The notes below the pieces were generated by a model. That model saw nothing but the letters and a program-made list of their open reading frames with translations, ran no database searches and was not told the DNA's origin. Shown piece by piece: positions 15,442 through 17,971 of a stretch of 39,731 bases of DNA. The DNA is from Planctomycetota bacterium (GTDB taxonomy: Bacteria > Planctomycetota > Planctomycetia > Planctomycetales > Planctomycetaceae). The stretch covers positions 1-39,731 of the forward strand of contig QWPB01000146.1 of assembly GCA_003671275.1 (NCBI GenBank), in the 5' to 3' direction. Numbering within the stretch: position 1 is the first letter of the stretch; the number at the start of each line of letters is the position of its first letter. Made by a program: the position numbers and the translations under genes.

Positions 15442-15493
15442 CACCCAGCGAGCGGCAGACGTGAGTCGACTCACGCCTGTCGCTCGCCGGTGT
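15441..15493. repeat. 53-base hairpin after the VWA gene
   Basis: A near-palindrome centred on GTGAGTCGACTCAC (15461-15474). Outer arms GCGAGCGGCAG and CTGTCGCTCGC, then ACACC/GGTGT, extend it to 15441-15493 with few mismatches. It begins at the last base of the stop codon. There is no T-run, so it is a repeat hairpin that may act as a 3' RNA stabiliser rather than a classical terminator. Confidence 0.65.
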
Positions 15494-15526: not shown

Positions 15527-15631
15527 GTGCCTGAACGTGTCCACCACATCCCGAACCTGATCTATTCCGTGGGGACGCAAGTCGTGTCTCTGCGGGAGAT
15601 CGTCATTGAACGGCAGAAGGTGGAAGGATGA
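15527..15631 (+). pseudogene. truncated small gene (N-terminal fragment) before the four-helix cassette
   Basis: A 34-codon frame, VPERVHHIPNLIYSVGTQVV then SLREI, starts at a GTG with GGGGAG ten bases upstream. From memory this matches the N-terminus of a small protein (about 80 residues) that in planctomycetes and relatives precedes COG3541-type nucleotidyltransferase genes. Here the match ends after about 28 residues. The remaining codons (RQKVEG) are read from the left inverted repeat of the cassette, and the frame stops in an ATGA overlap with the four-helix gene. I infer disruption by insertion; the family assignment is recall, not a search. Confidence 0.45.
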
Positions 15632-16040
15632 AGGGTGAATCAGGGAAGGCAACACCACTGGACTTGAGTGTGAGAACTAAGCAATTCGCGTTGCGGATCA
15701 TTCGGCTCTATTCCTCTTTGCCGACGACCACTGAAGCTCAAGTGCTAGGCAAGCAGCTTCTCCGATCGGGAACGTCTGTGGGGGCTCACTATCGAGAAGC
15801 AACCCGCAGCCGTTCGACTGCGGAGTTTGTCAGCAAGCTGGGCGGCGGACTTCAGGAGCTTGAAGAGTCTGGCTACTGGCTTGAACTCCTGATCGAATCG
15901 GGGATTGTCAAAGGTAAACTGCTGTCCAATTTGCTCGGAGAAGTGAACGAGCTGACAGCCATCCTCGTATCCTGTGTCAAGAACGCCCGCAAGCCAGGCC
16001 ACTGAAATGTCTCTGACTCAGCCTTCAGCCTTCCTCCTTC
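15616..16040. mobile_element. putative mobile cassette: four-helix-bundle gene between 28-bp inverted repeats
   Basis: The left arm (15616-15643) and the inverted right arm (16013-16040) match at 24 of 28 positions; both are purine-rich on the left strand, built from GAAGG units. Between them lies one complete gene (15628-16005). The left arm overlaps the end of a truncated gene and the right arm supplies codons 3-12 of the following nucleotidyltransferase. There is no transposase. This suits a small passenger cassette spread by an unknown route. Confidence 0.5.
15628..16005 (+). CDS. four-helix bundle protein (23S rRNA IVS / S23 family)
   Basis: A 125-residue all-helical protein of the family first seen encoded in intervening sequences of bacterial 23S rRNA genes. 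Characteristic segments are VRTKQFALRIIRLYSSLP, QVLGKQLLRSGTSVGAHYRE, the RSRSTAEFVSKL stretch and LQELEESGYWLELLIESG. Family members form small pentameric bundles; their cellular role is not established. The ATG at 15628 overlaps the stop of the preceding fragment, and its first residues (MKGESGKATPLD) come partly from the repeat, so TTG 15664 or GTG 15670 near VRTKQF are alternative starts. It ends two bases before the next ATG. Confidence 0.88.
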   Translation: MKGESGKATPLDLSVRTKQFALRIIRLYSSLPTTTEAQVLGKQLLRSGTSVGAHYREATRSRSTAEFVSKLGGGLQELEESGYWLELLIESGIVKGKLLSNLLGEVNELTAILVSCVKNARKPGH

Positions 16041-16837
16041 ATCCTTTGTTCAAACGAGTGATCTTTCGCTGCATCATCGGCTCTCGGGCCTATGGTCTCG
16101 ACGACGACCAGTCCGATACCGACTACCGGGGGATCTTTCTCCCGACAGCGGAACAGCACTGGTCATTGAACGGCGTGCCGGAACACATCGAGTGTTACGA
16201 GACGCAGGAGCACTACTGGGAGTTACAGCGGTTTGGCGAAGAGACGGTCGAGAAGTCCGGCATGCATGACGGGCTGGAGATCGATCTGGTCACGCACGAT
16301 GCCAAGAAGTTCTTTGGACTGATGCTCAAGAAGAATGGCTATGTGCTGGAGCAGCTGCTCTCTCCGCTGATCGTCCAGACCTCACCGGAACATGAGGAGC
16401 TGAAGGCCATCGCCCCCATGTGTATCACCCGGCACCATGCCCATCACTACCTCGGATTTGCCGAAACGCAGTGGAACCTGTTCCTGAAGACCGACCCACC
16501 GCACGTCAAACCGCTGCTGTATGTCTATCGGGTACTGCTGACCGGGATTCATCTGATGCGGACGGGGCAGATCGAAGCCAATCTGGTCCGGCTCAACGAA
16601 GACGCCCAGCTGCCCTACATCCCCGACCTGATCGCCCGCAAAACCGGCGGCCCGGAGAAGGGGAGACTGGAAGCCGCGGACCTGATAGCGCATGCGGCCA
16701 ATTTCATCTGCCTCAAGACGGAATTGAAATCCGCCTTTGAACAGAGTCGTCTCCCAGACGGACCCGCACCGACAGCGGCAGCGGCATTGAATGATCTGTT
16801 GTGCAGGGTGCGACTAACTAAAGGGGCACATCCGTAA
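16007..16837 (+). CDS. predicted nucleotidyltransferase (COG3541 / DNA polymerase beta superfamily)
   Basis: A 276-residue cytosolic protein with the nucleotidyltransferase signature GSRAYGLDDDQSDTDYRG (GS motif followed by DxD metal ligands), then HWSLNGVPEHIECYETQEHY and a helical C-terminal half, as in YcgL-type predicted nucleotidyltransferases. The natural substrate is unknown; relatives occur in accessory and phage-response regions. Residues 3-12 (LTQPSAFLLH) are encoded by the right inverted repeat of the cassette, so the original N-terminus has probably been replaced. The catalytic core starting at FKRVIFRCIIGSRAYG appears complete. It starts at ATG 16007, directly after the four-helix gene. 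Confidence 0.82.
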   Translation: MSLTQPSAFLLHPLFKRVIFRCIIGSRAYGLDDDQSDTDYRGIFLPTAEQHWSLNGVPEHIECYETQEHYWELQRFGEETVEKSGMHDGLEIDLVTHDAKKFFGLMLKKNGYVLEQLLSPLIVQTSPEHEELKAIAPMCITRHHAHHYLGFAETQWNLFLKTDPPHVKPLLYVYRVLLTGIHLMRTGQIEANLVRLNEDAQLPYIPDLIARKTGGPEKGRLEAADLIAHAANFICLKTELKSAFEQSRLPDGPAPTAAAALNDLLCRVRLTKGAHP

Positions 16838-16843
16838 ATACTT

Positions 16844-16858
16844 CATCCCTCAGGGATG
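16844..16858. repeat. CATCCCT hairpin
   Basis: CATCCCT (16844-16850), C, AGGGATG (16852-16858). A short perfect inverted repeat that begins seven bases after the nucleotidyltransferase stop; resembles dispersed planctomycete intergenic repeats. Confidence 0.45.
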
Positions 16859-16906
16859 AGAGATGACATCGGTGCGTCAATTCACACTCGACGAAGGAAC
16901 TCCTCC

Positions 16907-17431
16907 ATGAAACGAATCACCGCTGGCCTGTTCATCGCGACCATCGCTGTTGTCCTCTGCACGAATGTCTACGCCTTGTACTCCGTCGCTAACGAAGGCC
17001 TCTGGCCCCAGAACTGGCCCAAGGAACTGGAGCCACTGCGAAAACAGGCGAGGACGCTGGTGGGACCTGAACTCGAAGCTCGACATTATGCCATCCCGTT
17101 CACCAAGCGGGAGGAGTTCGAAGCGGCCTGGCCGCACTTGCTCGAGGCCAAGACGAAGAGGGCTCCGATCCTGCTCGTGCGAGGGAAAAACTTCTTCCTG
17201 AATCAACGAGAAGCGGGCGTCGTGATTCACTCGCCCCCCGAAGGGCAGCACAAGAACCCAGCCACGCCCGAAGCACCGATCGCAGGAGTGACCAACCCGC
17301 GGGAGAAGTGGATGAACACGACCTACATCGAACTGGTCGTTGATGGCCAGATCGTCGACTTGAATCGGATCGAACTGCCCGCCGATACGCCGATCATCGA
17401 TGAGCGGTTTCCGAGGGCGTCGGGCGAGTAG
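16907..17431 (+). CDS. secreted protein, unknown family, paralogue A
   Basis: A 174-residue protein with a clear signal peptide (MKRITAGLFIATIAVVLC, cleavage near residue 24). The mature part holds the motifs NEGLWPQNWPKELEPLRKQ, YAIPFTKREEFEAAWPHLL and a C-terminal DLNRIELPADTPIIDERFP. The next gene encodes the same motifs in the same order at about 55% identity by eye, so the two are tandem duplicates. No cysteines suggest a lipoprotein or zinc site in the mature chain. Function unknown; a periplasmic or surface role is inferred. It is the first of three genes read in one direction with 30-base and overlapping joins, so an operon is likely. Confidence 0.75.
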   Translation: MKRITAGLFIATIAVVLCTNVYALYSVANEGLWPQNWPKELEPLRKQARTLVGPELEARHYAIPFTKREEFEAAWPHLLEAKTKRAPILLVRGKNFFLNQREAGVVIHSPPEGQHKNPATPEAPIAGVTNPREKWMNTTYIELVVDGQIVDLNRIELPADTPIIDERFPRASGE

Positions 17432-17461: not shown

Positions 17462-17971
17462 GTGCAACGAATCCTGGCCTTGCTGCTTTTGACCATTCTC
17501 TGCCTGGCATGCCATGTGTGTGCAGACTATCTAGTGTCCAACGAGGGACAATGGCCAGCGAATTGGTCGAAGGAACTGGAACCGCTGCGAAAGCAATCGC
17601 GGACGCTGGAAGGACCGCTTCACCCCCTGCTGCATCATGCGATCCCCTTCACTAATCGAGAAGAGTTCGAAGCGGTTTGGCCGCACATTGTGTCGGTCAA
17701 GACGAAGGGGGCTCCCATCGTCCTGCGTCGTGGCCCCAGTTTCTGGTTCGACGATAAGAAGTCCGCCGGTGTCTGCATCCATACGCCTCCCGAAGGCCAG
17801 GCTCCGAACACCGACCTCAAATCGGTGCGGGGCAATTGGGAGCAGACGATCTACATCGAATTGATCGTGGATGGACAGATCGTCGACCTGAACCGCATCC
17901 CATTCCCCGCCGACACGCCGATCATTGACGAGCGGTTCCCAACGACAACTGTCTCAAAGGATTCGAAATGA
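17462..17971 (+). CDS. secreted protein, unknown family, paralogue B
   Basis: A 169-residue tandem copy of the preceding protein, starting at GTG 17462 behind GGGAGAAG. It has a signal peptide (MQRILALLLLTILCLACHVC) with several cysteines, so a lipoprotein is possible though the lipobox is not canonical. Matching blocks are NEGQWPANWSKELEPLRKQ, AIPFTNREEFEAVWPH, IHTPPEGQ and FPADTPIIDERFP. Divergence is greatest in the middle, where the first copy has an insert around TPEAPIAGVTNP. Its last four bases overlap the next gene (ATGA), indicating translational coupling. Function unknown. Confidence 0.75.
   Translation: MQRILALLLLTILCLACHVCADYLVSNEGQWPANWSKELEPLRKQSRTLEGPLHPLLHHAIPFTNREEFEAVWPHIVSVKTKGAPIVLRRGPSFWFDDKKSAGVCIHTPPEGQAPNTDLKSVRGNWEQTIYIELIVDGQIVDLNRIPFPADTPIIDERFPTTTVSKDSK

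Follow-up and report, generated by a model that had tools for sequence, protein, structure and literature searches.

In a 39,731-nucleotide stretch of DNA from a Planctomycetota bacterium (contig QWPB01000146.1, positions 1 to 39,731 of the forward strand; we call this whole stretch the window), a 441-bp cassette lies in a protein gene at 15605-16045. The cassette holds one gene of the S23 family, whose products are also called 23S rRNA-intervening sequence proteins (IVPs), between two inverted arrays of a 7-nt unit. It is probably a heptad-armed S23 element, a free-standing form of the intervening sequence (IVS) of 23S rRNA. Elements of this kind are about 430-470 bp long and consist of a G-rich heptamer or octamer array, an S23/IVP open reading frame (ORF) and the array in reverse complement; they are mobile, arms included. 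On our best reading of the data, such elements are the rRNA intervening sequence in generalised form, mobile among protein genes and operons.

S23 genes between inverted heptamer arrays

In the window, the left arm (15616..15643, forward strand) is the heptamer array GAAGGTG GAAGGAT GAAGGGT GAA, followed by TCAG. The right arm (16013..16046, forward strand) is a reverse-complement heptamer array, with its periodic part at 16018-16046 and its inner end reading TCTGACTCA; it is the reverse complement of AAGGATG AAGGAGG AAGGCTG AAGGCTGA. An initial annotation of the window had described 15616-15643 and 16013-16040 as imperfect inverted repeats, and direct reading by eye confirms that they match as reverse complements at 24 of 28 positions; a longer local alignment, also by eye, has 26 matches in 31 columns. 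That these arms are heptamer arrays (GAAGGNN and its reverse complement) goes beyond the initial annotation. RNA folding of 15600-16060 gives 39 pairs between the arms (15600-15646 with 16010-16057), and the complementary ends make a stem around the S23 ORF, as in a 23S IVS. The location differs, since the window copy sits in a protein gene and not in a 23S rRNA helix. The heptamer pattern matches five times in the window, all within the two arms, against 0.50 times expected, and none of 100 shuffles reaches five. At the threshold used, the 39.7 kb contain no period-7 array besides the right arm, and in the 5.0-Mb genome to which the window belongs, the pattern is confined to the cassette save for one match with two mismatches.

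The ORF between the arms (15628..16005, forward strand; 125 aa) starts with an ATG that lies within the left arm. It belongs to PF05635 (4.1e-18, 66 bits; curated cut-off 33.8), which is its sole family match. The AlphaFold2 (AF2) monomer model has four helices and a predicted local distance difference test (pLDDT) score of 91.6, and its Foldseek matches are 2RLD and 2GSC, then 8UB7 and 4DWL. Model and matches agree with the four-helix-bundle protomer of the family, so the complete four-helix-bundle gene of the initial annotation stands.

Genes of PF05635 occur in 46 of 61 genomes of the window's family, in 1 to 10 copies each. Our comparison covered 184 IVP genes, drawn from planctomycetes, from plasmids and from at least 12 phyla (counted from record titles, with one Methanophagales, i.e. 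archaeal, record included), plus 45 from viral contigs. The planctomycete set comprises 97 distinct genes, 96 of them with 100 nt on each side; its loci outside the window's own genome are the upper part of the matches listed rather than a random sample. The other 87 genes come from the best 80 of 580 loci together with six plasmid loci. A typical S23 sequence (A2) was the query for the wider-genome and viral-contig sets, which are thereby biased towards canonical members. Arm scoring required at least 150 nt of flank (97 IVPs became 93 in planctomycetes, 47 became 45 in viral contigs), four short loci of 33 were dropped from one comparison of heptamers between copies, and orthologous loci are not independent of one another. 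Searching phage records by tblastn with one IVP gave no match, yet 49 viral-contig loci hold a relative. In 20 further IVP loci that were compared with Rfam, no RNA family matched, and none of them is located in rRNA.

Periodicity of 7 is a general property of the flanks. When 100-nt planctomycete flanks are compared with themselves, the mean self-match is 0.37 at lag 7, 0.35 at lag 14, 0.32 at lag 21 and 0.29 at lag 28, against 0.25-0.29 at other lags and 0.255 at lag 7 in 548 control segments. Flanks of the 87 IVPs from other phyla and plasmids give 0.38 and 0.39 at lag 7, where the control is 0.262, and 0.31 and 0.32 at lag 8; those of the 45 testable viral-contig IVPs (of 49 loci) give 0.40 and 0.38 at lag 7, with lags 4-15 scanned. 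Distant control segments are flat save for the codon period of 3.

The two arms of a locus also match each other. Aligned with the reverse complement of its own downstream flank, the upstream flank scores 34 in planctomycetes (n=93), 38 in other phyla and plasmids (n=87) and 40 in viral contigs (n=45), against 17 across loci in each case. A score of at least 27 is reached by 132 of 173 IVPs and by 11 of 162 control ORFs from the same loci; this cut was set after the data had been seen, and covers the 173 of 184 IVPs with full flanks here and 137 of the 184 in the polarity comparison below. The recurrence of the window's repeat at other S23 loci, as the initial annotation had envisaged it, therefore holds in altered form: the exact repeat is not found at the other S23 loci of the own genome, but each of the 132 loci has inverted heptamer or octamer arms of its own.

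The best unit is 7 nt in 189 arms, 8 in 34 and 9 or 10 in six; 45 arms have none. Heptamers are specific to the locus (75 distinct ones in 80 loci). Dictation of the heptamer by the protein was considered and finds weak support, as copies with 70-80% identity often carry unrelated heptamers. Unit length (8 against 7) does track the protein, in 8 of 16 nearest neighbours; 200 shuffles average 2.1 and reach at most 9. Two of the four PF05635 copies in the window's own genome have a stop codon inside the match.

Arrays of the same build also occur without an S23 gene. A Mesorhizobium genome (G084, source of locus L162) contains three-unit GGCAGTA arrays with 39 forward and 42 reverse matches, and none of the pattern written backwards. 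Of the roughly 22 clusters listed we fetched 20, among which 18 are short S23-less hairpins (array, loop of 7-54 nt, inverted array), one flanks an S23 gene and one is a single array. Similarity among the 300-nt flanks of the hairpins was not found, and none is apparent by eye among their loops. Four S23 copies are present in this genome, no two with the same unit, and one of the four shares its heptamer with the 18 hairpins. In Phormidium, GGGAGTC has 107 and 51 matches; of 20 fetched regions, one has an S23 copy between inverted arrays, two have a short hairpin, and 18 have nothing but arrays that lack an inverted partner within 150 nt. As a separate observation, the backwards control of three GGGAGTC units, three units of CTGAGGG, has 78 and 81 matches in Thiohalocapsa (G086, the genome of L181) and is another abundant heptamer repeat.

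The arrays have a fixed strand polarity. In every one of the 18 Mesorhizobium hairpins the G-rich unit stands first, and in the left arm of 137 IVP loci G exceeds C in 131 and falls below it in four, whereas by the same measure chance inverted pairs (control score cut 24) divide 24 to 18. Because an inverted pair reads alike from both strands, this polarity is independent of the direction of the S23 gene. At both junctions, the G-rich strand runs 5' to 3' from host into element. Telomeric repeats sit on chromosome ends with this G-rich orientation. A Shine-Dalgarno role for the G-rich arm was rejected, because the G-first polarity is strand-symmetric and is also present in the S23-less hairpins.

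Insertion, persistence and rival explanations

Filled and empty sites are seen in conjugative cyanobacterial plasmids. At site 1, an S23 element lies between two genes in Trichormus variabilis ATCC 29413 (T. variabilis 0441 is identical there) and in Scytonema NIES-4073. The site is empty in plasmids of Aulosira, Nostoc linckia, N. carneum and Microchaete and in two of Tolypothrix, with 97.3-97.7% match; three of these six were aligned with both filled copies. Both arrays lie inside the 428-bp insert, so it includes both arms, and array length differs between the two filled copies. Nostoc C052 retains what by eye is a remnant of the element. Three more sites are found in Calothrix NIES-22 plasmids 1 and 2, in Nostoc ATCC 53789 pNsp_a with Nostoc C052 pC052_D, and in pNsp_c, and a fifth in Aulosira plasmid 2; junctions were read by eye. 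The heptad-armed S23 element is thus mobile, arms included, and the mobile cassette of the initial annotation is supported through these other members. Also at site 1, Brasilonema pBOCT2 (L221, about 1650-1760) has by eye a small S23-less hairpin with similar heptamers, whose GC-rich loop recurs inverted further along the same stretch.

Elements can also stay in place. There are 51 pairs of IVP loci with homologous flanks on both sides (one pair being two pieces of one locus). In some of these, the S23 gene has been kept at orthologous loci while both arms have changed to another heptamer or octamer: L142 and L171 (proteins 79% alike), the Flavobacterium L144 group (74% on average) and L099/L103. 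The arms therefore change in sequence while the element remains at its site. The ratio of nonsynonymous to synonymous polymorphism (pN/pS) has a median of 0.27 over 96 pairs and is 0.06-0.24 in the closest pairs, where pS is high; the low values mean that the S23 protein is maintained, under purifying selection. Of 94 copies between same-strand neighbours, 83 are co-directional with them and 11 opposite.

These data are what one would expect if S23 were a stable resident host gene, its arms forming an RNA stem for RNase III processing, stability or translation control, with mobility rare and incidental. Excision of the Coxiella IVS by RNase III, described in the retrieved text of PMC4990558, points the same way. 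We nevertheless regard a resident gene as quite unlikely. It does not account for filled and empty sites with 97%-identical flanks, or for a family in which 46 of 61 genomes have between 1 and 10 copies. Different S23 subfamilies occupy one context in L043/L123 (27% identity) and L083/L105 (25%), which suggests repeated insertion, and selection on a stem alone leaves the 7-nt unit unexplained. In addition to mobility, the arms may simply serve as an RNA stem for RNase III processing, as happens in rRNA; this would explain why they remain complementary.

If the element moves, it might do so by classical transposition in trans, as a non-autonomous transposon whose arms are terminal inverted repeats recognised by a host transposase that makes a 5-bp target duplication. 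The inserts are clean, and GTAAT stands on both sides at site 1 and TTCTA at site 3, although the latter duplication is in doubt, since the site 5 element, too, ends in TTCTAG. No duplication is seen at sites 2 and 5, where about 10-12 bp and about 8 bp of target are replaced; these losses are estimates, as the flanks are merely 91-94% alike. A permutation over 119 other loci finds no excess of target duplication, so duplication was rejected as a general rule. Insertion sequences and miniature inverted-repeat transposable elements have conserved ends recognised by a transposase, whereas here the heptamer differs at almost every locus. Taken with these ends, transposition in trans seems very unlikely. 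Insertion into pre-existing host hairpins, another candidate, was also rejected, the flanks outside the arrays having no more than a weak excess of complementarity (10.03 against 9.56, standard deviation of the mean 0.20, 88 loci).

Ordinary slippage of the polymerase, with arms that are simple-sequence repeats and indirectly associated with S23, would fit the array-length difference at site 1 and the over-representation of heptamers among bacterial simple repeats noted in the retrieved parts of PMC4679880 and PMC4692102. It is extremely improbable as an account of these arms: period 7 is absent from distant control segments, the pairing of both arms at the same locus contradicts it, and slippage would yield neither inverted pairs with matched heptamers nor a strand polarity of 131 to 4.

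The interrupted gene in the window

The initial annotation had placed the cassette between two normally adjacent genes, a small truncated one and a nucleotidyltransferase. The nucleotidyltransferase is an RlaP protein (PF10127, 6e-51). We searched 59 genomes (the own genome and 58 relatives) with it and obtained matches in 17, the own genome included; 15 relatives match residues 1-62, and the loci of 13 of these were fetched. In 12 of the 13 (L028-L038 and L040), one continuous ORF, gene A, comprises both the small domain and the nucleotidyltransferase; the thirteenth, L039, has no small domain. The insert therefore split one gene, and insertion between neighbours, for which the two separate ORFs flanking the cassette speak, is scarcely tenable. 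The small N-terminal domain is one that we take to be KOW-like.

The 5' fragment of gene A (15527..15604, forward strand; GTG start) has 26 family-like residues when aligned to those 12 relatives, close to the 28 or so of the initial annotation, and ends in ...SLREIV; junction-patch and repeat-encoded codons follow, and the ORF as a whole spans 15527-15631. Gene A resumes at LFKRVI (16046). Relatives have 60-66 residues, mostly 66, between these two points, so that the insert has taken the place of about 66 codons, leaving two separate ORFs. The four-helix gene, whose presence or absence in relatives the initial annotation had left as a check, is absent from this place in the same 12 relatives.

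At the left junction, 11 nt (15605..15615, forward strand) are neither heptamer nor host-like, a feature that the initial annotation did not record. The first 10 nt of this patch, together with the preceding GTC (15602-15604), are an exact 13-nt copy of 16162-16174; a match of this kind is found at none of 400 random window places and in one of 400 shuffles. Locally copied patches are typical of break repair.

The nucleotidyltransferase has a second peculiarity, likewise new. In relatives, its residues 1-62 correspond to one gene, A, and residues from about 63 to 262 to another, B. Of the 15 relatives with a match to residues 1-62, 13 have A and B no more than about 2.2 kb apart; the two are on different contigs in G033 and far apart in G047. 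In the window, the resumed gene A (16046..16234, forward strand; from LFKRVIFRCIIGSRAYG to about YWELQRF) is closest to copy A, and the part in frame behind it (16235..16837, forward strand) matches copy B from about residues 60-65 onward. By these matches, 16046-16837 is a deletion hybrid in which paralogue A passes in frame into paralogue B at about 16235. The deletion between the paralogues is separate from the insertion of the cassette.

Two further features of the window lie outside the interrupted gene. After the large upstream ORF there is a palindrome at 15445-15490 with 24-nt arms; with up to three mismatches allowed, its 21-nt core has no second copy in the genome, but a 24-25 nt piece of it has one further exact match there and one apiece in two genomes of the same genus. 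Downstream, 16856-17431 and 17462-17971 are adjoining paralogous small ORFs with a DNA self-match of 68% over about 400 bp.

Proposed origin of the arms and relation to known systems

A mechanism can be sketched for the heptad-armed S23 element. It would enter at a double-strand break, where one and the same heptamer would be added to both 3' host ends, in the manner of telomeres, before these are joined via a loop that would hold the S23 gene or filler. The S23 protein, with its Avd fold, would scaffold array RNA or DNA for a putative polymerase acting in trans; Avd is the partner of a reverse transcriptase, and the shared fold makes RNA-templated addition thinkable. Arm lengths are uncorrelated (r=0.08) though both arms share one heptamer, and the order of units is weakly shared between arms (mean z 0.28, t=2.16, n=68); arm-to-arm copying in register, considered as a source of the second arm, accordingly found weak support. 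Heptamer addition followed by joining would cover most of what is seen, namely the lack of a general duplication, small target losses, a copied patch, uncorrelated arm lengths, weakly shared unit order and unrelated loops. The mechanism as a whole is a tentative proposal, possible rather than likely.

Several findings weigh against the element as we read it, or against its proposed origin. No catalytic protein is encoded within it. Clear-armed IVP copies within one genome carry different heptamers, so a single genome-wide template is no explanation. Many IVP-less hairpins are seen in just one genome, the Phormidium arrays are mostly single, and miniature hairpins of the window heptamer were not found in the own genome. 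The arm threshold, itself chosen with the data in view, leaves 41 of 173 IVPs below it, and control ORF flanks are slightly raised at lag 7 (0.296, against 0.276-0.290 at neighbouring lags). Site 1 resembles a 5-bp target duplication, which break repair does not predict. For the window locus, no relative near enough to provide an empty site at the DNA level was found, the same-genus relatives yielding just a 24-nt match in two incomplete genomes.

A broader version, which we think unlikely, would make S23 elements the coding members of a new class of mobile DNA defined by the syntax of its ends, i.e. inverted 7-nt (sometimes 8-nt) arrays of fixed polarity. The arrays would be added to 3' break ends by a telomerase-like polymerase, RNA- or array-templated, together with an S23 pentamer, and then joined via a loop; the short tandemly repeated repetitive (STRR) sequences of cyanobacteria, TAACTGA and GGGAATC would be S23-less products.

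The value of a heptad-armed S23 element is that S23 genes, whose function is not known, and bacterial heptamer repeats, whose cause is not known, can be viewed together, as parts of a mobile element whose syntax is recognisable, in bacteria and one archaeal record. The Mesorhizobium genome, with an S23 copy and 18 protein-less hairpins of one heptamer, is a test bed for the origin of the repeats. If end addition is true, it would amount to telomere-like synthesis in bacteria.

Among known systems, repetitive extragenic palindromes and their associated tyrosine transposases (REP/RAYT) also combine many dispersed protein-less hairpins with rare copies that have a coding partner. Unlike these, the S23 ORF has no Y1 transposase domain, PF05635 being its sole match, and the loops of different S23-less copies look unrelated by eye. 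The STRR sequences of cyanobacteria are heptamer repeats as well. The window S23 protein shares its fold with Avd of diversity-generating retroelements (4DWL; 8UB7 chain E), and free-standing S23 genes of four-helix-bundle proteins (PF05635; 2RLD, 2GSC) share both family and fold with the window ORF. Homology of S23 and Avd is noted in the retrieved text of PMC10053308.

Free-standing S23 genes in cas loci are listed as CRISPR-associated in the retrieved portions of PMC3936711 and PMC10910872. In our set, three loci (L132, L134 and L290) have an S23 gene among cas genes, between cas6 and cas4 in Anabaena sp. 90 and Pseudanabaena galeata, and between cas10/cmr2 and cmr3 in Picosynechococcus. 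All three have flanks of heptad or octad type (arm scores 55 and 29 for L132 and L134; L290 by eye), and they may be insertions rather than CRISPR parts, an explanation that we offer for S23 genes in cas loci.

Heptamer repeats have been described in the Nostoc tRNA-Leu intron P6b (PMC3488679), in Beggiatoaceae as TAACTGA (PMC4679880), and in Nostoc and Xanthomonas, where GGGAATC forms 70 inverted pairs in one genome of Xanthomonas and 75 in another (PMC4692102). They are arrays, partly in inverted pairs, as here, but the retrieved text of these sources describes no link to S23; the terms 'S23' and 'four helix' do not occur in that of PMC4679880 and PMC4692102. IVP-carrying insertions are scattered over several sites in the 16S and 23S rRNA genes of candidate phyla radiation bacteria (PMC11270868). 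They resemble the elements here in having an IVP family member in inserted DNA and differ in being in rRNA genes, and the main text of that paper, as retrieved, contains neither 'inverted repeat' nor 'heptamer'.

The closest relation is to the 23S IVS of Coxiella burnetii (Warrier 2016; PMC4990558, as retrieved), which is 428 nt long, with an S23 ORF, a 28-bp terminal complementary stem and GACAGAT heptameric direct repeats before the S23 start whose number varies between strains. Size (428 nt against about 430-470), ORF, stem and heptamers are alike; the Coxiella IVS is in rRNA, whereas the window copy is in a protein gene. The retrieved text of that article describes the heptamers upstream of the ORF, without extension to other S23 genes, and cites Xcc0516, of the same family, as a homopentameric ring. 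Much of the same syntax is thus present at one rRNA site. In our literature search, whose reach excluded most subscription papers and all preprints, no title or abstract among the matches listed links S23 genes generally with inverted heptamer arrays. Heptamers in the Coxiella 23S IVS, and elsewhere apart from S23, are therefore known; the S23 element belongs with the known IVS kind, and what is new is the S23 gene with heptamer arms as a general class.

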